Assembly: GCA_947034885.2 (NCBI GenBank)
Contig: OX344754.2
Location: 9,493,001-9,557,000 of the forward strand
Length of the DNA: 64,000 nucleotides
Reading direction: 5' to 3'
Source of the DNA: Thuidium tamariscinum
Taxonomy: Eukaryota > Streptophyta > Bryopsida > Hypnales > Thuidiaceae
A model generated the notes under the pieces. The model was not told the origin of the DNA and did no database searches. It saw nothing but the letters and a program-made list of their open reading frames with translations. The first letter of the stretch is position 1, and the number at the start of each line of letters is the position of its first letter. Positions 5,401 through 59,771 of the stretch are shown here, piece after piece. Position numbers and translations under genes: made by a program.

Positions 5401-8400
5401 GGCTAAATCCTCTTTTTTTTACTATAGCCCAATGAAAAATAATTGAAGTATTTCTTACAATCATTCATAAATAGAATATCATAATATAGAAGTCTAACTA
5501 TCATGAAAAATTTTCAAGTAGGTCAAATGAACTCACAAATAAAATAAAGATGGCATGTGTAAAATATTTAAGCTTGTATTTAAAGTAGTAGGCCCAATGT
5601 AGTTTGTAAGCCGGATACCAGTGAAATTATTGTTGGACAAATCTAAACTTCTTGCATCAAAATAAGGACCGGTAGAAAATATCCCTGAGAATTGGTTATT
5701 TCTAAGAGCTCTGTACATCCACAATCAAAATCTCATAGGTAAAAACAACTAGGAGATCAACCTAATCAGAGCTTCAACTACACTTTAGTGATTTCACAAT
5801 TCAAAAACTTTATATGAGCCACATTTTAGAATGACTAGATAGAATTAGAAACAATTACATGCCTATATAGTAAAATCTTAGAGTGAAGAATAATCTTACA
5901 AAGTTGGAGCAACAGTGACATTCCAATCTTCAAAATTGATTGGTCCATTTAGTTGATTAAATTCCAAATTCCTACACAAGACAAGTGAAATTGAAAAAGT
6001 TTCCATCAATTTTGCATATTTTGAACAAATGTAGAATGAAGATCATTGAAACTAGTCCTACAAAAACTTCACTATAAATGATCAAATTATACATGTAATG
6101 GATCTTAAAAGAAACAATTGATATCAAATGCCTCATCAAATGATGATAGAAACTTGAATTTCCTTTTACACATTATTCATAGCGTTGTTTCAATTAAAAA
6201 AACAGGATAGGTGGTTAAATTTTTTTTGAATTAAACTAAACAATGTAACTAGTAGCATGCTTAGTGGCAAATCATGTGGATCATAATGATGTTAGGTACT
6301 TTAATCCAAATAGAATTTCAAATAGTAAACAAGAAGAGAATACCATGTAGCAAACACTTTATGTCATGGGAAAAACTGATAAACAATTTACAAGAACCAA
6401 CTTTTCAACCTGACAAAAGCTTTTGGATGTTGATGCAATTTGTTTTATCTTGTTCACAAATAGGAGCACATGAACAACTTCTTGTCAATAGATTGGCACT
6501 CACAGGTCACTGAGAGATGAACAGAAGAGAGTCCCTTGGGAGCTCACTTGTAGACTCCCACTAAAATTGTTGTTGTTCAGGTATCTGTTATCAAGACAAA
6601 TATGCATCAAATTAGAACCAAATAAAAAACTGCAACACCGAAACTCAAACAAGCGCATGCATGGAAGCAGGACATTCTATTTCCGAATTTGTAGTTCAAT
6701 GATGTGAGCAGGTGTATCAGTTTGCATTCATCTAACATATTTTCCAATTTGCACTGAGGGTCGTAAACATCGTCTGAGGGCAGTAATCCACTTAAAGAGT
6801 TGTTGGACAAGCTCCTGCACCATCACACAGTATCATTGTTAAGCTGGCAAGTTTCCAATGTGACATTGATGTACACAGAGCTCTAGAAACCAAGCACTCC
6901 ATCTCAAAAGTGCAATTGGCATTCAGTGTTACATTAGAGCATCCCCATGCCTGCTCTTCAAAGCAACACTTCAAACATTTTGGACCACTGATCTTCCTCT
7001 GACAAGGAAGATCAGTGGTCCCAAATGTTTGAAGTGTTGCTTTGAAGAGCAGGCATGGGGATGCTCTTAGCCATTCAAAATAACAGGATGAGGCAAATGT
7101 TATGGCAGGATCTGTCGATTGGACTTAAGTTAGAAGTGAAGCTAAATAGTTTATTTACAACCATTGGACATGATTGAAGAAGTCTCTTCATAATATTAGC
7201 TGACTCAATTCAACTTAGCTTTGACCACTTACAATGATATTAGGTTGGGCATATGGAATATCTCAACCGGCACTGGTCCCTTCAGCTTTGGATTATTACC
7301 AATCACTCTGCAAAATCCCAGGAGCATCGGTGAAATTGATCGATAGTGATTGCAATCATGCCCAATTTCGTTAAAATGACGGTATTTCAAATGCCATTTT
7401 TCAAACAGCGCAATCTGAACTGAAAATTGATATCTAAGATAGGTATAGATTTTAAGACATTTATGACATATATAGATTTCCAAAATCTATGACAAATTTA
7501 GATTTCAAATCCCATGGTCTGAAACATCTTGGATATGTATGGATTTCAGAAATCCACAACATATATAGATTTCAAAAATCTATGACAGGTGTAGATTTCA
7601 GACCGCTCAGTCTGAACTGTCAAAAATGTCAAATTAATGGAATACCACCATTTTAACGAAATTCACCATAATTGTGGTAGGATTGGTGAATTATCCTACA
7701 CAAAGGTCATGTCATTTTGGAAGAAAATTGACATGTGTCATCTTGTGAGTGGTCTAAAGTGACGTGGAACCCACTGGACTCCCAGAATCTGACGTGGAAA
7801 TTCAATTTCGACACTCAACTGCCGAATCAGCCCTTCACTTACGGTATCAAATCCAATCAAAGATTCTCTGTTCGGGGATGAGGATTGGCGTCTACTTACA
7901 GGACTTGCAGGTTGGTCAAGTTGCTAATCTCCGAAGGCAGTTGTCCAATTATCCCGTCGAAGCCACACTGCTCAGGAAAGATGTGATTTTCGCAGCTAGA
8001 AATCCTAGAATTGCTCCCATATATCCTGATCGAGACGAACGGGTGGCATGAACCGATTAGAAGTAGGAGCATATATTCCAACGTTAATTTCGTTCAATTG
8101 GCGATGTTCTCCGCCGAAACCCACGCCAAAAATCGCGCCAGATATCTTCACAACTTCGGTCTAATGTCAGGCCACAAACTAAAACAGATACAGACTTTGG
8201 TGCAGGCCGTGCCTGAACCACGCCAAAACAATGATGGAATATTGCCAATTTCAAGAAATTGACATTGATGTGCGGGATTCGAGTGCAAAGATTCTGTACC
8301 ACCAAACGCAATTCTAGGCAGTTTGCAGCTTGCACTTGCTTCTTCCACCACAAAGCTGAGACTGGAAAGGCCGTAGCCAGCAGTGCATAACCATTATATA

Positions 8401-24070: not shown

Positions 24071-24080
24071 GATTAGATAC
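24071..24080. repeat. Left target-site duplication of the 12-kb element
   Basis: GATTAGATAC occurs here and again at 36054-36063, immediately outside the two terminal inverted repeats. A 9-11 bp duplication is the hallmark of Mutator-like (MULE) insertion. Confidence 0.85.
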
Positions 24081-24309
24081 CAACGACGCTAGCATGTGAG
24101 CATGTGAGCGTGAGCCTATGAGCAGTGAGCGTGAGCCTACGAGCGGTGAGCAGGAATTGTGTGAGCCTAAAGTCTACAAATTTGAATTATGATACAACTT
24201 TTGATTTTCTTTAGTAAAAAAGTAAAATAGATTGATGTTTTTTCAACAGAGTTTATTATTTTTAGAAAATATGACCTATTGCTGTGGGACCCATGACCGT
24301 GGATTTAAA
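24081..24309 (+). repeat. Left terminal inverted repeat region of the 12-kb element
   Basis: The outer block GA(C/T)GCTAG..TGTGAGC is followed by a short array of GTGAGC(C/G/A) words through about 24170. After about 115 bp comes the block at 24286-24309, which matches the right arm at 22 of 24 positions (GGGACCYATGACCGTGG core). The array is longer on this side, so the two arms match in blocks and not end to end. Confidence 0.8.
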
Positions 24310-24643
24310 AACCTAGAAAGTTGGGGCTATTGCGAGTTCAAATTTTATATTCAGATTTATATCATGTTTTCAAAAGTTCTCCTAGAGTAAGCTCACAAAG
24401 TGAAAGTACAAATAATTCATCCAAAGGAAATTCTAAAATTGACAAGAAGACAAATGCAATGAAAATACCAAAAAGAATTTCTCATCCTGCAAATAATAAA
24501 ATATTGTTTCATTGCAAGAAAAAATACATATTAGAATATGAATATAATACTTTGCATATATGAAAATTTTGAAGATAATATATCGCTACTACATATTTAC
24601 TTCCTATCATGCTAATACTAGTCAATTAACTTGTTCACTGACT

Positions 24644-27600
24644 TCACTCGCACGTCTTGATGATTCCAGCAACAACAAGCACTTGCTTAACTTCATCCAA
24701 ACTAAGGGTAGGAGCGTGAATGAATGTGTCTGTCTTGTAATCCAATTTGCAGAAGTAACGAAAAATGTAATAAAGATGTTTGCAGTTTATGTACATGCCA
24801 CGCTTTCCAATGGAAGTTCCATTCATACCTCCATAATGGGGACAAGTACAAGATGGAAAACTGGAAAGCGTGATATTATAAACCTTTTGATTAGGCTCAC
24901 TACCAAACAAAAGTGTAATAATAGCACCAAGTCCAGGGTAAGGAAGGAAGTTTACCCCAGTGATACTTGCTGTAACATTCCTGGCACTCTCCCATTGATT
25001 GCGGTGATTTTCAGTGGGGGCCTTACTGCTGCGACGAACCTGTTTTCCATTTCGAATGGAAGGGATTCTGTCAGCATGTGCTGGTCGAGGGTGAGTCCAC
25101 AACATTGGCTCAAATACCCTAGATGAGGTGAATAGCCGGCGCGGTGACATCGGAATGCTGGACTGTAAGCAAAATCCAGCCTCTTCAAACTCTATAATTT
25201 CGGTACGAGTAAGATTGGTACCAATAAGAACCGACCAGATCTCAGGGATCTCAGGTCGAGTAAGAATATGGGAACGTTTAGGTCCCATGACACATCGTAC
25301 AATTTGGTCTGCACAAAACCAAAAATCCTCAATTTGAACTGTCGTGCCCTTATACTCACGCTTTTGCCCTCTATAAGTAGGGGCAGCTGTGGATATTCCG
25401 TGCCTCACAATCAATAACTTGCATTTGGCTTGTGTGTACTTCTGAATGGCATGACACTGTTTCCTTGACTTGTGTGAAATTCTCGCTATATGCCATTCTG
25501 CAGTATCACAGTCAGTTTCCATGACAGATTGGGTATGGGGTAAAACTATATTAGTTTCCTGAACTGCAGATCCAAGTTGCACTCTACCACTAGTTGACCT
25601 AATTTGAACCCGAGGATGAGAGAAGTTCACTTTGTCGGGGCGATGAGAATCACCTTCGGAACCAATAGGAAGATCTAATTTCCTTTTGCTGGATCCAAAT
25701 ACTTCTTCACCCTCCAAATGCGGAATTCGAGTGCAAATGTCTTCTGCTCTAGGCATCTCACTAAGTACATCTGCAATTTTTTTTCCATCTCCAGATGCCA
25801 TAGCCCTTTTCAATTTCAAATCTTCTTTAGAAGGGCCTTTTCCAGAAGGGCCCCCACAAAGATAAGCCCTATAGTTGGTCATCTGCATAAAGGCTTGAAC
25901 CCAGTCATCACAAGTGGCAACAAACAAATCAGATCCACGCTTCCCTGAAGCTTGCATCCATTTGTTGTGCATTGTTTCTGCCAGATTGCATGTTGGAATG
26001 TCTGCTAATTCTTCTATTGTCAATTTCTGCAAATATAATAAATGAAGTCATTATTTGAAACATTTAGCATGTAGGATAAAAAATAGAAAAACAAACAATA
26101 AAAGTAGAGATCATACCGTATCCATGAATGCACCCCATTGATGATATCGAAAGTGCCAAAATGCTAGCCAATCCTCAAGTTCACGGATAGCTGGTTCTGA
26201 TGCAGCTCCAGAAGAATACCACCAAGCTTTGATTTCTAGATACATCTTATCCGCCTCAGACATTAATGTTGCATCCTTATACTGCTTGCAAAGTCGAATA
26301 TGCTGTTTTTGGAACTCTTTGGCGATTAACTTCTCCATGTGCTTGTGCATACTTGTTGCCCAATGGAACAAGCAAGTCCTTTCACGGTCCACCATTGGAA
26401 TAGATGGATCCCCCGACCCATACACAGTGCGAACAACATTAAAGTTGGCTTGAGCACTATCGCACATAAATCCTTTGAAGGTACGACTTGACACTCCATT
26501 TTTTACCATGACCTTATTTAGACAACGCCAAAAAATGATCTGACCTTCAGAGCCCTCAGTCTGCATATCACATACTGCAATGGTCATGACTTTACAATAA
26601 GTAGAATCATAAACGTGACAAGCAATAGTTGTCCATAATTTCACCCTCTTGACATGATCAAACATGACAAAACAATTCTCAAGGTTGCCGCCAGGTTGCA
26701 TCCGTCGTACAAGATCCACTCCACTTCCAGGTCCATCCACAAGCATCTTGAATAAATACACCTTGTCTTGCCCTTGTCCTGGAAATACGCTATCGTGGAT
26801 ATACTCCATTTTGGCACGTCCCTTCATGTCTAAAATTCGATCAATCTCGCCTTCACCTTTGTTGTTGCTTCGGAAAGAGGATATGATGTTGCGCACATTG
26901 GGCGAGCTAAAGAGCTTGAACTTATCCATGACATTCTCCAACGCATCACCGTGAAGCATCTCCTTTGGTCCAGGCCCATCGTGAATAAGAAACGTATCAA
27001 GGAATTCCTTGCTTGCCGCCAAGGTAATAGCAGAAGTCTTGGCTGTTGGAGTCCTAGCTACTTCATTAGCAAGTAGTCCAGTTATCGCTTGAAGAGACTC
27101 TCTACATTGACCATCAGCAACTGGATGTGAATGAACACCCAAATGGATGCATGCACGTGACAAATCTCCGGTTCTGAGTACATAATAAATCCGCGAGTTA
27201 CATAGACTGAGACAAGTAGGAGGTTGTCTACAGACTTTATAAAGCACGGTAGAGTCAAGGGGAAGGATTTGACCTATACTAAAAGGATGTTTAGTGGTCC
27301 CAATCCACTCAATTTCATTGCTTTTCAAAGCTCGTGTGCGATAGTCACATTTTGTATTTTCACAAATCAAGTGTCCGATACAATGGGACTTTCTGAACTT
27401 CAAACCTAGGTCATTATGGATGTTTGATGTCATAGTGCGACACCATGCATGACCATCATACCGCTTGTCCATACCTTCCATACCTCTAGCTCCATATGTA
27501 GATCCACTACAAGGTGGCAACTCAAAAAGAACATTACCATCGAATCTAGCTGGGAGGAATTGAACCTTTTGATAGTCAATGGCATCAAAATCAGTTTGGG

Positions 27601-28258
27601 CAAGTTCATTCCGTGATCCAGGCAGTGAAGACAGTTTGCGAAGGCATTCTAATACACTTAAGGAATCATGATGATTGGGAGGGAGAGGAGGACGAGAGAA
27701 CCCGGACAATGCTGGACTACTAAGTGTACTACGGAAGGTAGTGGGAATGGATAAATCTACCACACATGGGAAAACAACATTTGAAGAAGATGGTTGCCAA
27801 GCTTTAACTAGCGTCTCACCTTCAGAATCACTAGACAACTCTATGACAGGTTCCAAAAGCTCGTGTTTCACATTGAAACCAATTGTATTCTCGGAGCATC
27901 CACTACCTAGGGACTCCACTTTTACATGATAGGGTAATGGGTGTTTACCCTTGGACATATCAGAAGTAGATGTTAGTATTTCAGTTGAAGGTGGCAAGAG
28001 CTTCGACAAGAGACCATAAACTCTATAACGTCCTGCAGAAAGAAGCCAATAGAATCCTTCATGATCACTACATCTTGACTGCAAAATAGACTCCTTAACA
28101 ACACTGTAGTCTCCTTGGACTTCTTCCTCTACAACAATAGAAGAAGGGGTGAATCCAAACCGGACATGGAGGAGATCAGCGTGCACCCGAACAAAACCTT
28201 GACTATCTAGTGGTAAAAAAAATGGGACATCATGACCTTTAGCAACAATACTAGCCAT
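24644..28258 (-). CDS. MULE-like transposase with SWIM zinc finger (2 exons)
   Basis: Exon 1 is 28258-26117 and exon 2 is 26026-24644, joined across a 90-nt GT/AG intron in phase 0, giving about 1174 residues with no internal stop. Residues 293-378 hold a Cys/His cluster (C293, C299, C304, C343, C349, C370, H376, H378) like the GCM/WRKY-type finger of MULE and FAR1 proteins. The region from about 530 to 714 has the order expected of a MULE DDE domain: Asp551 (VYDSTY), Asp600 (CDSAQAN), FHW at 631-633, and a possible Glu near 693. A SWIM-type C-x-C...C-x-H motif lies at C1107, C1109, C1129, H1131. VIELSSDSEGE at 138-148 looks like a SUMO-interacting motif. Position inside a TIR/TSD-bounded unit argues for a transposase rather than a domesticated FAR1-like factor. 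Assignment of the catalytic residues is by motif order only. Confidence 0.8.
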
Positions 28259-28936
28259 AGTGAAGCATTAAAGAAAAGTAGAAAACTAGAGGCAAGACCA
28301 GTACAAAGAAGCAAGAAATGATGTTTGCGAGTGCAAGGGATGTGAATATGAAGGATAAAATTATAGGGTTGTTGGAAATGAATGGAATTTTTTTCATGGA
28401 TGTAGTAAAATTTGAAATTGGATTGATGATTTGAATGGTCATTCATCAATGAATATCATATGAAGATTTGATATAGAAGAAGGTACATTAATAGTAGGTG
28501 AAATGGAGTTGGGTAAGGCTGCGTACTGCATGGCATCAATTAGCGTATCACCAATAATAAATGAATTATAATATGAAGAATATTGATATGTATCAGACGA
28601 AGTTGTTAGTGTTAAAACTGTCGCTAACAAAAGACGGTAAGCCGTCATGCATTGGAGTTGATGATGACGTACGACATGTTTAGAATTATAATTATACATC
28701 TAGTGAGAGGTTAAGAATCTAGTGGTTGATGATGATTCAAATTGCAAATAAAACTAGCCGTTATGTAGTGATGAAATGAAACTATATCCTTACAAAGAGG
28801 AGTCCTTGAAGTCTCATAGATTATAAAAGCTTGATGAGCATCATGAGGTAGCAGATATAAATGCGAGTTAGGAAGAAGGTGTGGTCTAGTATAGCAAATG
28901 TTGATATTGTAATGCTTTGATAGTTGATTATTTCAG
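28259..28936. promoter_or_regulatory. Divergent promoter region between transposase and gene B
   Basis: A 678-bp spacer separates the transposase start (minus) from the gene B start (plus), so it should drive both. It contains AGCCGTTA (28756-28763), identical to half of the palindrome repeated in gene C intron 1, and the small inverted repeat GACGGTAAGCCGTC (28633-28646). No TATA position is asserted. Confidence 0.45.
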
Positions 28937-29510
28937 ATGCAAGAGCACTTGCTTTCTCCATTGTTAGTATTGGATACTGTAGTTACAGGTACGAAGAAGA
29001 AGAGGAGGAAAAGTAGCTTTCGTTTTTCAAGTAGAAGGCAATTGTTAAATGCTAGAATGATTAGGCAGTTGTCCCGAATGAGTGCAACAGATTTGTTGAG
29101 CACAAGGAGGAATTTAACATATGAAGGTATAGTTCCTTGTGAAGCAATAAGAGAGGATATTGTAGAGGTTGGGCATACTTCTTGTGAAGCTCAACCAGAG
29201 ATTGCCTCTAGCTATAGTGATTGTGATCAAAACATTGACGAAGAAGAAGATGAAGTAGACGAAGACAAAGAAGAAGAACAGCAACACCAATCTATAGTAC
29301 CAGCACTGGAGTTGGAAGTAGAGCTAGGAGGTACAAACAAAATGGTACGTAAATAATTTTCTCCAAGCAATGGTAAATTAGAAAGTACGTGAAATTTTGT
29401 TTGTGACACATTTACAGGAACTTTATATCATTTTGTGCGCGTCGGAAGCACGATTCCAACGGTATATAGCACGTAAAAAATGGATGCATATTGAGTGTTT
29501 TACGGCCTAA
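28937..29510 (+). CDS. Gene B: small basic/acidic protein of the transposon (2 exons)
   Basis: Exon 1 is 28937-29344 (donor GTACGT) and exon 2 is 29418-29510 (acceptor TTTACAG), phase 0, giving 166 residues ending ..ARKKWMHIECFTA. Residues 19-50 are strongly basic (GTKKKRRKSSFRFSSRR), suggesting a nuclear localisation or nucleic-acid contact; residues 99-115 are nearly all Asp/Glu. No known domain is recognised. The ATG follows directly after TTATTTCAG, which looks like a splice acceptor, so there may be an upstream leader exon. Single-exon reading would end at 29356 instead. It shares its promoter region with the transposase, which fits a second transposon-encoded function, as accessory proteins are in some MULEs; its role is unknown. 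Confidence 0.5.
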
Positions 29511-29892
29511 AAACTAAAACAGCATCTTGGAATCTTTCCTGAAATCTTCAGAATTCGCTGATTTTTAGGCCAAATCCAGGCCTCCGAGTTTTAGTAGTTT
29601 TTTGGCGATTTTTGTAAAATCACTCGAGTGTCCAAAAAATCTGAAAAAAATTAGAGGAAATCTGACCCGTAGAATCTTTGGGTACAAATTTTTTTGGCTT
29701 GAAATCTTGAAAATTGAAGAAGTTATTCAAAAGATTCCCTTGAGGTACATCTACCAATTCTATACTTGTTTTTTTTTTGTTTTTTTTTTGAGACTTGCTT
29801 CAACCTAAGCCTTGTTGTTTCTTCGCACGTTGTCTTTGAAGGCGCTGGAGCATCAACATACAGAAGAAGAGGAGGGCGGAGAAGCTATCACG
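29511..29892. other. Spacer and leader between genes B and C
   Basis: Contains a long T-run near 29766-29790 and becomes GC-richer from about 29830, where the leader of gene C probably starts. No other gene seen. Confidence 0.4.
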
Positions 29893-32800
29893 ATGGAGAA
29901 AAGGGAGGCTGCAGCAGAGGCTGCGGCGGAATCAGAGCGGCGAGCTGAGCGTGGAAAAACGGCGATCCAAGAAAATGAGTGGACAGCAAGTGCGGCGACT
30001 GAGGCAAATCCAGGTGCGAGGGTTTTTTTTGGCCTTCCTAGACCCCAGCCGTTGACGGCTGCGCTTTTTCCGATTCTACTTCGCTTTCAATAATGCTTAG
30101 AATTTTGCTGATGTCTGCACCTGTAATAGACAGTCATTAACGGCCACTGTTTTCTGAATTTCAGTTTAGGGTATTCACTGCTACAATTCTGTAAAGCATT
30201 ATAATTTTTGGAGCCTTGTTGAACCCCAGCCGTTAACGGCTATGGTTTTCGAGATTTAGATTTGCTTCCAATAGATACTGTGAAGTAGTCAAATGCTGAA
30301 ATTTTCGAGCCATCCTAGACCCCAGCCGTTGACGGCCGTGCTTCCAACACATTCATTTTTTTCTTTAGAACATTAGGGATTTGATCAAATGCTGAAATTT
30401 TTTAGACCTTCTTAGACCCCAACCGTTAACGGCCACGCTTTTAGAGACATAAATTTGTTGTCTAATTATGCTACATCTCTGAACACTTGCCAAATGCTGA
30501 AATTTTTAGGACTTCTTAGACCCCAGCCGTTAACGGCCACGCTTTCAGAGACATAAATTTGTTGTCTAACTATGCTACATTTTTTAACACTTGCCAAATG
30601 CTGAATTTTTAGGACTTCTTTGACCCCAGCCGTTGACGGCCACGCTTTTAGAGACATAAATTTGTTGTCTAAATATGCTACAATTTTGAATACTTGCCAA
30701 ATGCTGAAATTTTTTGGGACTTCTTTTACCATAGCTGTTCAAGACTACATTTTTTAAAAACTTGCATTTACTTTTGATGTATGCTAGATTGTTATAAAAT
30801 TGTCACATGCTGAATTCCTTTAGGACTTCTCAGACCCCAGCCGTTGACGACCACACTTTTAGAGACTTGCATTTGCTTCTAATACATGCTATGTACTTGA
30901 TTTTATGCTGAAATTTTTGGGCCTCCTTAGATCACATCTATTAATACTTCCTATATTAAATTGCATAATTTTTGGTACATATGCATAAACTACAACTTCT
31001 TCTAATCTTTTTGTACACATTGTTCTTGAGATGTTGACAGAAGGAGATCCACAAGCACAAACAGTAGATGCTGCACTTCAGCTTCTATCTCAAGATCAAT
31101 TGGAGTTAGAGTTGCATGGATTCTTGAAGAAGGAGACTGTGAATACTTCTTCTCTTCTTGAGCAGTTGAGGTATCAACCACGAGCTAAATCCATAATCAA
31201 CATTCCTTTGTGCCGTATGATCTCTCTACCGGTGGTGAGGCCTTTCTTGAAGAATGATGTTATGAATTTAGCTGCACACTTTGTTACTTGTGGTTACATG
31301 GAAGGAAATGGAGTTTTCTATGTTGCCTTGGAGAACAATGAGGGGAAAACAGTAGATGTCACGGATGACATTATCAAAACATGGAGTCCAAACTGGGTGA
31401 GAGCAAATGTTGCATTTGAGAGAGAATTGCAAAATAATGAAGATCTCAAAGCTTTTTCTGGCAAGATGTTTATGGTGTGGGATGGCAACCATCGTTTACA
31501 AGCATGGTTGCCTCTTATCAACCGAGATCATGCGGACGACTTTCAATGGCATTATGCTGTTGAAAGTATCATTTTGGAGGTCAAAGGGGATGTTGCGACT
31601 ATGTTGACAGCATTGCATGAAGTCAATTGGTATTCCCTTATGTTTCTCTATCAATTTTCATTTTATTCAATTCCTTAGTTTTCAAAGTTTATGTAATTTG
31701 GAATATTGAATGTACCACTATTCTATCTTCTTTAGTTCAATGTTTACTTCATCAATTCTAATACAATAAATTTTGTTTTGGCAGGCGAAACTAGAAGTCT
31801 CATGTCTCCATAAATCTTGTTCACAAGCTCTATCGCATTCAAAGTATTGCTGGATAGCCACTCTCATACTTTGAGAAACTTGTTTCTAAGGAGGATCTTA
31901 TTGCAGCTGAAGCTAAGCAAAAGTCAAAACAAAGAACTTGGTTCACTCTAACTCTGGAGGCTCTAAATGGATTCTTATATCAGGTTTACTTTTTTATTTC
32001 CTTTTTTCACTTCATATTTCCTTGAATGTTTAGGCTTCTTCACATTTGCACTTTCTTTCATTTGATTTTATATCTCTTCATCAAGTATGCAAAACATTTG
32101 TTATCATGTGCAATTTTATTTATTCTTATACATTCTTTACTTTGTGCAGCAAGAGTTGGGGGATGCTGCTGTTGCGGCTCAAAGAAAATTCTATGAGAAG
32201 TATCCCAATCCAACAAATTGGACTTCAAATGCAGTTTCTGAGTGGGTCTCCAAAGCTGTTGACAAGGTCAAGATAGCTTCCCATTCAGAATTGAAGAAGC
32301 AACTTCCCATTGCTGATCCGAAGCATACGACCGCATTTTTGGAGCAGATAAAGCTTCATTATGAAACTCATGATGACAATCCAGAGATGACCCAGGAGAA
32401 ACTTTGGATGTTGGCAACTTCAGCGATGAATACTTCCATGAAGATCAAGTGGCTTGAGAGATGGAATAAGTCTCCTTCTCTTTGTGAGGCTCTCAGATTT
32501 CCTAAACCGAAATTCAGTGACATTGACTTTCCTGAGTGGCTTCATAAAACTACATGGTGGGCTCAGGTGAATACTTATCTTTCTTTCCTACTATTTTAAT
32601 ACTACTTCTTTGAATCTTTTGAGTCAATCAAACCATTCTTCTAATTTACAATTTGTATACATGGCAGTTGGCTATTGAGACAGAAAAACTTTTCAATGCT
32701 ATAGTGGCTGATTTGGACGTGTCTATTAACTATCTTCCCGATGGTATGGATCCCTTGCCTACCATTTTTGATTATGTGGAGACAATGCGCATACTGTTGT

Positions 32801-35095
32801 GGGATACTGCATTCTTCCGTGAATTTGCTGTAGATAAGGGAGTTCACAAGAACAATAAGATAGACAAGCAACTGAACTTCAAATCAGCCATGCAGAGGGT
32901 ACTTTATAGGTACTTCAAGTACATTCTTTTTCCTGCCAAAGCCATTTCCAGAACTCCTACTTTCTTTACCAATTATTTGGACAAAGAAAGTGAAGAGTGC
33001 ATGTTCACAAATGGGATCATGAAATCTTGGGATCCCATACATTGGGAAAGATGTGGGTGGTATTTGAATTGTCCTCTCAAAAGACCACATATTTTTGACA
33101 TTGTCCTTCGAGATTCTATTGAGCCCGCCTTCAAAGGTACAACTATAGTTGTTCCTAAAGTGGTTGATAAGGATGCAACCAAGAAGACTAGGAAGACCAA
33201 GTCAAAGAAAGTGGTGGTTGATCTTGATGATTCTAATGAAGATGTACCAGTTGAAGACACTCTCAAGCACCTTGTTGTCACTAGACCTTCTTCTTCCAAT
33301 GTTCAAGAAAAACTCCCTGCTTCAAAGCGCCAGAAGACATCTTTTACTTCTGTGGTTTTGGTACCAACCTCCTCTCCTACCTTTGAGCTACCTCCTAAGC
33401 TTAAAGGTATGATGAGTACTTCGGCTCCTTTGTCTATCAATCATACATCTCTTAATCTAATCTTGAATGATTCTTTATTAGAATTGTTGAAGAGAAGAAG
33501 AAGAATGGTACATTTGGTATATCATATAACAACATTGTGGCTTTTCTCTCAAAGGTGAGTTCATTCTTTCTATTTGTTTGTTTTTTATCTCATTTTTATT
33601 GTTATGAAATCTTACATGTTCTATATAATTTACATCTTCTCATTTTTTTTATGACTTTGACATCTTTTATCATGAATTAACATTTCTGAAATTTTATCTT
33701 TGTAGGTTGGTGAAGGCAGAGAGTTCTTTTTTGATGGAAAAATACAAAAAAGACCAGCTGTGGACCTCATCATTGCTGAATATCCAGATGGTCTTCCAGT
33801 TCCAGGTGTTTCAAATCCACCATCTCAAATTCCACATTGGAATGCTAGCATTCCAAGTTTTCTTCATGTGATGATGGCGTTCTCTCTTACTTATCTTCAT
33901 GATGATGGAGCATTTCTTCTATTTTTACCTGACAGTTCTACAGTGAAAAGAGAAGTGGCTGGATTCTTCAAGAATTACAAATTGAAGATGAAGGATGAGT
34001 GGACTATCATAAATTGCTTACATTTGGCACATCCTATGAACCCATCCAAATTTGTAAGTAGTAATTTTAATCTTTTACTTCTACTTTTGACTCAATTGTT
34101 ATTACACTTTGTTTGATTTCAAATGTACCTTCTAATTTGAATTTGATTTTGATTTGCAGACATTGAAGTTCAAGGCTTTGTTGTTGGTTCAATCATTTGC
34201 CTCTCCTACCGCTAGACTACCTCAAGAGCTTCAGATTTCTATTGATCCTTCAATTCTCGAGGTTGATTTAGCCACAGATGACGTCCTCTTCAACTCTATC
34301 ACGACAACAACTCAATCATGTGGAAAGGAAGATGGCAAGCCATGGAGGGGTGCTAAGGAGAAGTCTGAGGTTCTAATGAAGCTTTTTGTTCATGGCTTGA
34401 GCCCTACAAGTAGTATTGTCGCAGATATGACTGCCTCTATAGGTATTGTAATCTACATTATTGAATCATTATTTTTCTATTTTGTGATTTGATTGTTTTT
34501 ATCTACCCTTCAATTTTGATGTTCTTATCATGCCAATGTTGTGTCTTAATCAGGTTCTTCCATCAGAGCAGCTCATTCATCTAATTGCCATATCCTAGCA
34601 TTAGAAATGATGCCAAGCTCTTTGATGAGGTTCTCAAGCCATTACAAACACCTACAACCATCTCCAAGACTCTTGATTCTTCTACCACAGGCGATGGTAT
34701 GGACATTGATGATGACTCTTCAATTGAAGATGTCGAACTACTTGACTTATGTGAGTAAGTCTTATTTATGTTTATTTCTCTTTTAACAATTTCAATTCAA
34801 AATTCTTTACTTAATATTCTAATTTGCTACTACATACTCAAATATATGGCTTGTTGTTTGCAGTTGGATGAATCCATCACCAAGACAGACCTTGCCTTTT
34901 TATCGACACCTTGGATTTTTTAGAAGTCCTACTTTGAGTCCTCAGGGTTTGCCTACATATGCTGAAGATTTAGCTTTAGCTTATGCTAATGTTTCATCTT
35001 ATTCATCTTCAGTCTCTTTATCACCTCGTAGATCTTATGATCCTAGGGTATGTTCTTATTTTGAACTCAGTGCATCTGAGTCAGACGATATTTGA
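29893..35095 (+). pseudogene. Gene C: ParB/sulfiredoxin-like domain protein, 10 exons, probably inactivated copy
   Basis: Exons: 29893-30013, 31041-31629, 31785-31983, 32150-32566, 32668-33406, 33493-33554, 33706-34053, 34160-34442, 34554-34754, 34864-35095; about 1063 codons. Exon 1 encodes an Ala/Glu-rich start (MEKREAAAEAAAE). Exon 2 carries, at residues 99-200, a ParB/Srx-like pattern: a strand with VVRPF, a helix NDVMNLAAHF, and the box WDGNHRLQAW (GNHR at 189-192), the signature loop of that fold. Exon 5 holds a linker with basic clusters (KKTRKTKSKK, SKRQKTS). Exon 7 has VDLIIAEYPDG followed by a helix and DDGAFLLFLP, reminiscent of motif IV and the next strand of N6/N4 methyltransferases, without the canonical DPPY. 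Exon 3 contains two in-frame TAG codons (31792-31794 and 31855-31857) and exon 9 changes frame near 34595, also mismatching the phase of exon 8. All other junctions agree in phase, so the gene was functional recently. Read-through or tissue-specific splicing cannot be excluded. Confidence 0.6.
30014..30960. repeat. Palindrome-centred minisatellite in gene C intron 1 (about 10 units of 85-107 bp)
   Basis: Each unit carries CCCCAGCCGTTAACGGCC or a variant. The 12-bp core GCCGTTAACGGC is a perfect palindrome at 30229-30240 and 30526-30537. It is present with one change (GTTGAC) at 30048-30059, 30325-30336 and 30629-30640, and with other small changes at 30422-30433 and 30840-30851. Degenerate copies lie near 30133, 30733 and 30935. 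The rest of the unit (GCTGAAATTTTT upstream, CACGCTTTTAGAGACATAAA downstream) diverges more. The core is better conserved than the spacer DNA, which suggests selection for a protein-binding site. The array fills most of the 1027-nt intron. Confidence 0.85.
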
Positions 35096-35940
35096 GTTTG
35101 ATTTTATGATTTCATATTTCATTTCTATTTACTTTATTTCAGATTGAATTTAACTATGCATGATGTGGCAACAATCCCAATTAATGGCCTAAGACTTCAC
35201 CCTATGCCCAAATTGAACAATAAAATTATGAGTCTTGAATTACACTACATTATTAAACTTTATAAAATTCTACATAGTACACTTTAACTTGGAATTCAAC
35301 TAAACTACTAGCATTGGATTTGTTTTTAGAAGAATTTTTTTTGACTAAGATAGTCCAAAAATAAAGGCATTCACTAGAAAAATAGTTGCTTAATTCATTC
35401 TAGGTTAATACATATATTTAGTATATAATATATGACTATCATGTATATTTTAAATATTTTCTATCCAAGATTTTTTTTGTTTTTAATTTTAAAGCATTGT
35501 TATAAAAATAAAATAAAATAAGACATGACCATTTTCATTCTTTAAATTTACATAAAGACCAACAATTAAGACTACATTTATTCCTTAGTCATAAGCTCAA
35601 AACCATTGTTCATGATATAGTGCTTGTAATATTTTGCCTATCACCAAATTTATATTCGACCTTTACAATCCATGTTTATTGCCCCTTCTATTTTTAACTT
35701 GATAAATGTCCTCCTTAAATAATGGTGTTATGATGTATTGTATTTTTTTCATATATGTCTTTGTAGTAAGATATCCTAGACTACTGGATTCACTTATTTT
35801 CATCATCATGTGTTGTTTACAAAATATTTCCTATTTTTTATAATATTCCAATTTAAAAATATATTTTGGTTCAATTTTGGAGGACAAAATCACATAGTAA
35901 CATATTCATTTGTTTTTCATTTGGACTATAGATCCTTGCA
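35096..35940. other. 3' non-coding part of the 12-kb element
   Basis: AT-rich DNA between the end of gene C and the right terminal repeat. No gene recognised; it should include the gene C 3' end. Confidence 0.4.
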
Positions 35941-36053
35941 TTTAATTCCACGGTCATAGGTCCCTAACAGATTTAGGAATCTTAAATGGATAAAAAAATG
36001 GAGGCTCACAGGCTCACAGGCTCATGCTCACAGGCTCACAAACTAGCATCCCC
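35941..36053 (-). repeat. Right terminal inverted repeat region of the 12-kb element
   Basis: In reverse complement it reads GATGCTAGTTTGTGAGCC, an array of TGTGAGCC/GCATGAGCC words, and then the block at 35941-35964, matching 24286-24309 at 22 of 24 positions. The outer and inner blocks occur in the same order as in the left arm but 89 bp apart instead of 205. Confidence 0.8.
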
Positions 36054-36063
36054 GATTAGATAC
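36054..36063. repeat. Right target-site duplication of the 12-kb element
   Basis: GATTAGATAC, identical to 24071-24080. Confidence 0.85.
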
Positions 36064-58725: not shown

Positions 58726-59628
58726 TCATCGCCTTCTTTTGGAAGAGTCTTGAGATCCCTTCGACGTTGTATACCCAGTTGCAGCTACCGAGCTTGAAAA
58801 ATCCCCAGTCGCGCTACTCTTCTCCTCTTCTTCTTCTTCGTCTTCTTCAACTTTTGCAGGCGACTGTGCGTCATCTTGTGGAGCTTTCTCCTGATCCTGA
58901 GGTTCATCTTGTGCTTCCTTTCTCTTGGCACTTCTGATACTCTTCGTACTCTTTGTGCTTTTCGTGCTGCTCTTTGATTTCTTTGCACTCTTCGTATCCC
59001 TGGTACTCTTAGTAAAGCTCTTGCTACTCTTGCCACTCTTGCTACTTCTGGATCCTGTGCTCTGGGATCCCGAGTCTGATTGAGACGATGCTGAAGTACG
59101 AGAATCGAGACTTCTACCATGTGTACCTTCAGAATGGGCAGTAGTAGTAGTTGCCGATCCTCCACTCGCAGTAGCAGCACTGACGTATGAATTGGTATTG
59201 ACTCCCGAATTGGTGATGGCTCCCGAATTCGTATTGTTTTCTGAATTAGACTCATCCCTGATTTGTTTAGGGTTTGCGACTGGGGGATCATTGGGATCAT
59301 TGAACCAGTACTTGTACCCTTGCTTGTAAATCACTTTCCCTCGTTCCGCCAGTCTTTTCAGTGTCGTCGTGAGCAGGTCGTTGCTGGCCTTGTCGAACCT
59401 GCCTTTGTATTTCTTGAGCATTTGGCGTCGGATGTCAGGTAAGCTGACGCCGCGGCGCTCCTCCCTCAAGGCGAGCACGGCTTCTTGCAGGAGCTCGAAG
59501 GATGTGGGAGGGGAGCCGCCGGTGGAAGTCGCGGGGATGATGGGAGGCTGTTTGCGGGGTCTTCGAGGGGGTCTTCGAGGGGGTCTTCGGAGGGTGCGGC
59601 TGTAGCGGGGACGGCTTGTGGACTTCAT
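58726..59628 (-). CDS. Linker-histone-like (H15 winged-helix) protein, single exon
   Basis: An uninterrupted frame of 300 residues from ATG at 59628. Residues 1-29 are very basic (RTLRRPPRRPPRRPRK). Residues 41-110 fit the H1/H5 globular domain: FELLQEAVLALREERRG, then LPDIRRQMLKKYKG, then LLTTTLKRLAERGKVI and YKQGYKYWF. The tail (about 120-245) is Ser/Thr/Asn-rich and then KS-rich (KSTKSTKSIRS); an acidic run (EEDEEEEEEK) lies near 271-280, and the C-terminus is SSKRRR. Canonical H1 tails are Lys/Ala/Pro-rich without an acidic stretch, so this may be an atypical H1 or another H15-domain nuclear protein. It is convergent with PP7; stop codons are 276 bp apart. Confidence 0.75.
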   Translation of the reverse strand: MKSTSRPRYSRTLRRPPRRPPRRPRKQPPIIPATSTGGSPPTSFELLQEAVLALREERRGVSLPDIRRQMLKKYKGRFDKASNDLLTTTLKRLAERGKVIYKQGYKYWFNDPNDPPVANPKQIRDESNSENNTNSGAITNSGVNTNSYVSAATASGGSATTTTAHSEGTHGRSLDSRTSASSQSDSGSQSTGSRSSKSGKSSKSFTKSTRDTKSAKKSKSSTKSTKSTKSIRSAKRKEAQDEPQDQEKAPQDDAQSPAKVEEDEEEEEEKSSATGDFSSSVAATGYTTSKGSQDSSKRRR

Positions 59629-59771
59629 CGTTGGGGTCTTGGGGATGCAATGAGGAAACGGGGTTTGTTTGATTTCTCAGGTTGATAATAAATGCATTGA
59701 AATCAATGCCTGCAAAGGACACTAATAATGAAATTAAGTGTAATCACACTAATTGATTTGGAATTTAGACC

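Follow-up and report, generated by a model that had tools for sequence, protein, structure and literature searches.

A predicted Mutator-type transposon of Thuidium tamariscinum whose head-to-head partner gene joins ParB-like and methyltransferase-like parts and holds a palindrome array

In a 64,000-nucleotide stretch of the moss Thuidium tamariscinum (GCA_947034885.2, contig OX344754.2, forward-strand positions 9,493,001 to 9,557,000; below, the window, numbered from its first base), positions 24081-36054 are most likely a DNA transposon with a flanking 9-bp duplication, ATTAGATAC. Our preferred reading, which we put at a probability of roughly 55%, is that of a Mutator-type transposon whose transposase has a constant head-to-head partner, here gene C, that joins a ParB-like part to a methyltransferase-like part, binds a palindrome array in its own intron and recognizes its own element. 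An initial annotation, made from the sequence alone, had proposed a Mutator-like element (MULE) with two accessory genes, B and C. The layout of the interior is as follows.

24644-26026, minus strand: transposase exon 2, 460 amino acids (aa) and stop, with CNLAETMHNKW and a CxC...CxH motif
26117-28258, minus strand: transposase exon 1, 714 aa, with a predicted GCM-like domain and a predicted RNase H-like core carrying D534 and D600
28259-28936, no strand: spacer between the divergent genes, a bidirectional promoter region as predicted from gene layout
28937-29344, plus strand: small basic open reading frame (ORF), probably gene B of the initial annotation and possibly exon 1 of gene C, with a GT donor at its end
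29842-30013, plus strand: gene C exon 2 (model), with GT-AG borders
30041-30851, plus strand: iterated palindrome array GCCG-TTRA-CGGC, seven plus-strand units, in the intron before the ParB exon
31041-31629, plus strand: gene C exon 3 (the ParB exon), predicted ParB/sulfiredoxin-like domain, motif FMVWDGNHRLQAW
31785-31983, plus strand: gene C exon 4, interrupted by two premature stops in the window copy
32150-33554, plus strand: gene C middle exons (model), at 32150-32566, 32668-33406 and 33482-33554
33706-34053, plus strand: gene C exon holding methylase motif IV, which reads EYPDG instead of DPPY
34160-34442 and 34554-34750, plus strand: gene C exons with methylase motif I, the domain being assigned by Pfam in related lineages
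34864-35095, plus strand: gene C last exon (model), stop at 35095

At all 62 transposase places scored among 1,043 candidates in the genome, the ParB exon stands head to head with the transposase, decayed at one. For 61 of them a listed ParB exon lies upstream on the opposite strand, always divergent, at 2.5-6.8 kb in 57 cases and at 11-28 kb in four; at the 62nd (C3:4502213, L039) the ParB and methylase exons are broken by stops. The count used 79 ParB places from two 150-row lists, and the remaining rows could only add nearer partners; first-look candidates for the ParB exon in the genome numbered 634 and 608, and a random scatter of the 634 places would put a partner within 15 kb in about 5% of cases. 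Mutator-type elements often capture genes, and some matches to the element ends alone may lack gene C, as expected if it were a captured host gene carried as a Pack-MULE style passenger. The head-to-head order at 62 of 62 places, across groups spanning 57-100% transposase identity, the divergent transposase at 3 of 3 loci when other groups were approached from the ParB side, and the sheer number of candidates speak against this; because every sampled place is paired, we dropped the passenger reading, which we regard as very improbable. That the genes are element functions, as the initial annotation held, agrees with these counts: gene C lying always outside such elements is contradicted by the 61 listed pairings (the 62nd being decayed), and the repeated co-occurrence it looked for is found at 57 of 62 transposase places, with a ParB exon within 7 kb.

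The identities of the two genes correlate across six lineages (5 of 720 permutations reach the value). Strict co-inheritance is ruled out by the window element, whose transposase is nearest that of lineage A61 (62%) and whose ParB exon is nearer that of L034 (44%) than that of A61 (34%); since the nearest relatives differ, the sequences speak for exchange of the gene C module between element lineages.

We found 121 homologues of exon 3. D151, G152 and R155, forming a DGxxR box, are invariant in 31 rows (the window and 30 of 120 listed homologues), and the box is kept in six of six lineages. A predicted model of the exon bears a weak likeness to sulfiredoxin and Noc; a ParB/sulfiredoxin-like domain is predicted here. 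When single rows were run against Pfam, one of the 31 matched DndB (E 0.0059) and one DUF1015 (E 0.028), both of which we take to be ParB-clan families. A PDB sequence search with this exon gave a ribosomal protein as its sole match (E 0.056), which was taken as chance. Of the ParB/sulfiredoxin-fold accessory gene first proposed, the ParB-like motif holds up and the fold match is weak; a methylase-like domain in the same protein had been overlooked.

That domain is best seen in two diverged elements fetched in halves, A61 (L029 and L030, 13,462 bp) and B57 (L031 and L032, 13,993 bp), which share a layout: exons 2 and 1 of the transposase lie on one strand, a small basic ORF followed by gene C on the opposite one. 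In both, splicing of gene C from the ParB exon onward gives a frame that stays open through ten exons. Its C-terminal part matches PF01555 (N6_N4_Mtase) with 26.8 bits in B57 (cut-off 26.7) and 19.9 bits in A61; the segments alone score 27.6 bits for B57 and 24.4 for A61, the latter below the same cut-off. Motif IV precedes motif I, the permuted order of beta-class N4/N6 methyltransferases, and weak PDB matches were to the DpnA and MboIIA methylases, with VDLIIADMPEG aligned to VDAIITDPPYN of DpnA. Because gene C carries this methylase domain, reading it as a ParB protein only was dropped; ParB-like (by motif) and methylase (by Pfam) parts lie in one protein, on the strand opposite the transposase. 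A comparison of the methylase part with phage proteins found, among 80 records, none covering 80% of it (best E 1e-5).

Motif IV is conserved, yet its sequence is unlike that of the standard enzyme. Its general form is [DE]xP[DE]G in an alignment of 123 rows (three of our own and the 120 listed among 166 homologues found for the motif IV exon), the fourth residue being D in 63, E in 52, N in 5, K in 2 and M in 1. Gene C could still be enzymatically active, methylating N4 of cytosine or N6 of adenine from an unusual catalytic site and thereby marking the DNA of its own element. For this count the domain match, the retention of motif I as D(C/L)TA(S/G)TG in the sequences viewed (DLTAGTG in homologues P0262, P0270, P0276 and P0277), and motif IV itself, which is probably under selection because it is conserved in this form. 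In known N4/N6 methylases, however, the fourth residue of motif IV is aromatic and stacks on the flipped base, and Y, F or W at this place of [DNS]PP[YFW] occurs in 0 of the 123 rows, an acidic residue standing there in 115. We consider an active enzyme unlikely, although the same proposal has been published for Ectocarpus (PMC12477816, in the portion available). In our preferred reading the methylase part would not act as a standard N4/N6 enzyme but as a module that binds the cofactor, or as a pseudo-enzyme.

The window array comprises eight matches, seven of them the plus-strand units in 30041-30851, centred on GCCGTTRACGGC; 0 of 100 shuffles reach eight, which bears out the dedicated repeat array of the initial annotation. 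Exact cores range from seven down to one (c5) and none (c15) among 11 copies of the window lineage (the window and ten fetched copies, see below). Across lineages the common frame is an iterated CG-NNNN-CG palindrome. In B57 the palindrome alone is repeated: nine copies of TCGGCGCCGA lie in 1.2 kb, and the sequences around them are unrelated. In A61 a 128-bp tandem repeat carries 16 copies of CTCTCG-CCAC-CGAGAG; L034 has CTCG-TTGA-CGAG four times, L035 has TCG-GATC-CGA five times, L039 has TCG-GCGC-CGA with variants nine times, and L033 has one site in a hairpin. By eye, the L035 palindromes (6211-7762) seem to be embedded in larger imperfect hairpins, with outer arms that vary between sites and look partly complementary.

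The pattern TCGN4CGA, derived from seven loci (the window itself being a misfit), was then tried on 12 fresh loci. It exceeded all 200 shuffles at eight, was weak at L043 (4/200) and was not enriched at L047-L049; without the near-copies L050 (of L035, 99% in the ParB exon) and L049 (of L034, 97%), the count is 7 of 10. L047 carries CG-GATC-CG 11 times and L049, when both strands are counted, CG-TTGA-CG four times. The leading CG-N4-CG centre exceeded all 200 shuffles at 15 of 19 loci and fell within the shuffle range at four, L033 (8/200), L043 (7), L048 (100) and L051 (87); the shuffles in both tests were first-order Markov resamples rather than exact permutations. The palindrome pattern occurs 17 times inside the intron vs. 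three outside it in A61, nine vs. five in B57, and five times in the 64-kb window vs. 1.45 expected.

The centre follows ParB-exon kinship (2 of 5000 permutations) in a test on 18 loci, L039 being excluded. The test is crude: it includes close pairs (96-99% identical ParB exons) and short ParB ORFs (91-151 aa in L039, L044, L048 and L050), and at A61 (a tie), L040 and L041 the leading centre differs from the palindromic one. The TTRA centre of the window is shared by its gene C relatives L034, L049 and, twice, L048, and finds no match in A61, the nearest by transposase; the window is thus the one case that begins to separate kinship of the array with gene C from kinship with the transposase.

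The ParB-like part of gene C would most likely bind the array in its own intron and so pick out its own element; binding with spreading, as of ParB from parS, might keep the element accessible and unsilenced or aid the assembly of its ends. We offer only tentatively, as somewhat doubtful, a fuller parS-like scheme in which the protein would load at its own palindrome and spread, with the methylase part as a cofactor sensor and the whole element kept open and recognizable to its transposase, and in which the centre of each lineage would have changed along with its ParB domain, preventing cross-activation between relatives. The likeness to ParB-parS, a system with CTP binding, a ParA partner and a segregation role, lies in sequence: the ParB-like motif of gene C and the repeated palindromes within it.

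Some points weigh against binding by gene C. L047, whose gene C is about as near to that of the window as is the gene C of L034, has a GATC centre, and the ParB fold match is weak. Kinship alone is no proof of binding, because the array sits in gene C and travels with it. On another view the palindromes are unrelated to the ParB-like part, and would be neutral intron repeats or binding sites for the transposase or for a host factor. The transposase has its own predicted GCM-like DNA-binding domain, some arrays are plain tandem repeats, most or all cores are lost in two window-lineage copies, and in B57 three more CTCTCGN4CGAGAG sites lie beyond the intron, one of them past gene C and the other two between the ORFs of the transposase. 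We give this account less than even chances: the site flanks are largely unrelated in B57, L039, L041, L042 and L045, and the lineage nearest to the window by transposase has a different centre.

The transposase has two exons separated by a 90-bp intron, in an open frame of 1,174 aa. It is predicted to be of Mutator/IS256 kind, with its best fold match to the ISCth4 transposase and the catalytic domain predicted accordingly. D534 and D600 are invariant in 42 aligned rows; judged by the MULE signature, E731 in CNLAETMHNKW is probably the third catalytic residue, and we take CxC...CxH to be a SWIM-like motif (a weak SWIM match, E 5.3, was obtained in one related lineage). Residues 1-83 are predicted to form a ubiquitin-like, PB1-like or DIX-like N-terminal domain. 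Exon 1 matched no Pfam family, and no window exon matched a MULE or SWIM family at E 1; among the 42 rows there were two weak matches to Transposase_mut, the best at E 0.034. Such scores, along with inverted termini that are short and imperfect for a MULE, would also suit a superfamily of its own, undescribed, with a fold similar to Mutator, which we think improbable. The Mutator reading, already made in the initial annotation, is backed by the predicted fold and the duplication length.

The borders of the element are defined by these features.

24072-24080, no strand: left target-site duplication, 9 bp, ATTAGATAC, from the ends of 11 copies
24081-24130, plus strand: 5' terminal inverted repeat, carrying subterminal GTGAGC repeats, first bases CAACGACGCTAG
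36004-36054, minus strand: 3' terminal inverted repeat, last bases ...CTAGCATCCCCG
36055-36063, no strand: right target-site duplication, ATTAGATAC, from the ends of copies

The inverted termini noticed earlier are real: 24085-24130 matches 36004-36050 in 83% of 47 columns, and GTGAGC recurs subterminally. So is the exact 10-bp repeat, GATTAGATAC at 24071-24080 and 36054-36063; as a duplication, it is more likely 9 bp plus the terminal G of the element. In ten of the 11 copies the base next to the terminal CCCC or CCCT is a G, so we place the element end at 36054 and the duplication at 9 bp, the tenth duplicated base most likely being the element's own last base. Base 24081 is also the exact start of several copies elsewhere in the genome. 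With G counted as the element's, the flanks repeat 9-10 bp exactly in 9 of 11 copies and with one mismatch in two (by eye), and the two diverged lineages have exact 10-bp duplications, TATTTAGCCT in A61 and CGTGGTCTTC in B57; all fall within the 8-11 bp of MULEs, which also have terminal inverted repeats. Rfam gave no matches within the window.

A 330-bp probe from the 5' end found at least 44 matches in the genome (40 of 168 candidates scored) and a 3'-end probe at least 43 (40 of 465). Ten further copies, selected for matching at both ends, were fetched, and all ten match both gene B and gene C. Copies with the same termini and neither gene were thus absent from this sample, which is limited to both-ended copies; because the sampled copies are all both-ended and transposase-bearing, gene-less derivatives may exist. 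Seven 3'-end matches of 85-96% identity have no listed 5' partner (C2:6826856, C5:26148341, C1:33406712, C7:24444513, C10:8767215, C1:54101411 and C1:54091981) and could be truncated or gene-less copies. Ends about 73-76% identical to those of the window are paired at 6.7-7.8 kb in C10:2938320-2945777, C2:27655989-27662677 and C2:26526792-26534616; these probably form a related subfamily of shorter elements that differ in content. Decay is common: transposase exon 1 is free of shift or stop in 3 of 11 window-lineage copies, and in the window copy the transposase is open and gene C is broken. By eye, 32 of 150 listed ParB exon rows lie on contig C11 (17.5 of 363 Mb), far above its genome share, an excess such as might be seen on a sex or B-like chromosome.

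The gene that the initial annotation gave ten exons is present; our model has eleven, and its frame is broken in the window copy: compared with the other ten copies, exon 4 contains the two premature stops and exon 10 (34554-34750) is shifted by 1 bp. The ORF taken for a separate gene B is likewise there, and may be the first exon of gene C. Basic ORFs occupy its position in both fully read lineages (the L029 and L031 elements); a loose pattern found no convincing one in L033, L034, L035 or L039.

Elsewhere in the window, a 316-aa ORF on the minus strand (58726-59676) is linker-histone-like by eye (GKVIYKQGYKYWFND, with a K/S-rich tail). Contig C6 begins with CCCTAAA repeats, presumably the plant-type telomere.

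Proteins with ParB-like and N4/N6 methylase parts have been described from algal transposons, as in Sola1-1_Ec32 of Ectocarpus and in green and red algae (PMC12477816, as far as its available text goes). The Sola1-1_Ec32 protein (~1,100 aa) likewise has both domains in one protein on the strand opposite the transposase; the carrier there is Sola1, whereas here it is predicted to be Mutator-type, the two being compared by description only, and the changed catalytic motif and the palindromic array are not mentioned for the algal system in that portion of the paper (PMC12477816). Because such proteins are published and carrier, motif and array differ, this is an element with new features within a known kind, namely the Mutator-type carrier, altered catalytic motif and site array. 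The element resembles MuDR and other MULEs in its 9-10 bp duplications, inverted termini, predicted IS256-like core and possible SWIM-like finger, and is unlike them in that the window transposase has no Pfam match and the accessory gene resembles none named in the accessible part of PMC6446971. The excerpts of PMC6446971 and PMC12730594 name no ParB-methylase gene for Mutator elements, the latter mentioning SET histone methyltransferase genes in MuDR families, and a literature search confined to open-access papers recognized no Mutator-borne ParB-methylase protein. In Arabidopsis VANDAL elements, the VANC protein counters the silencing of its own element sequence-specifically, according to the consulted sections of PMC10398659 and PMC5735166; the likeness to gene C is a functional analogy only.

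If our reading is true, a prokaryotic-type DNA-marking module would have become the regular companion of a Mutator-type transposase across many copies, with a changed methylase active site and its own array of recognition sites. The published guess that a ParB-methylase protein marks its own transposon becomes directly testable, with protein, site and self/non-self specificity named, and Mutator-type elements would have, beside VANC, a second solution to telling their own DNA from that of the host.

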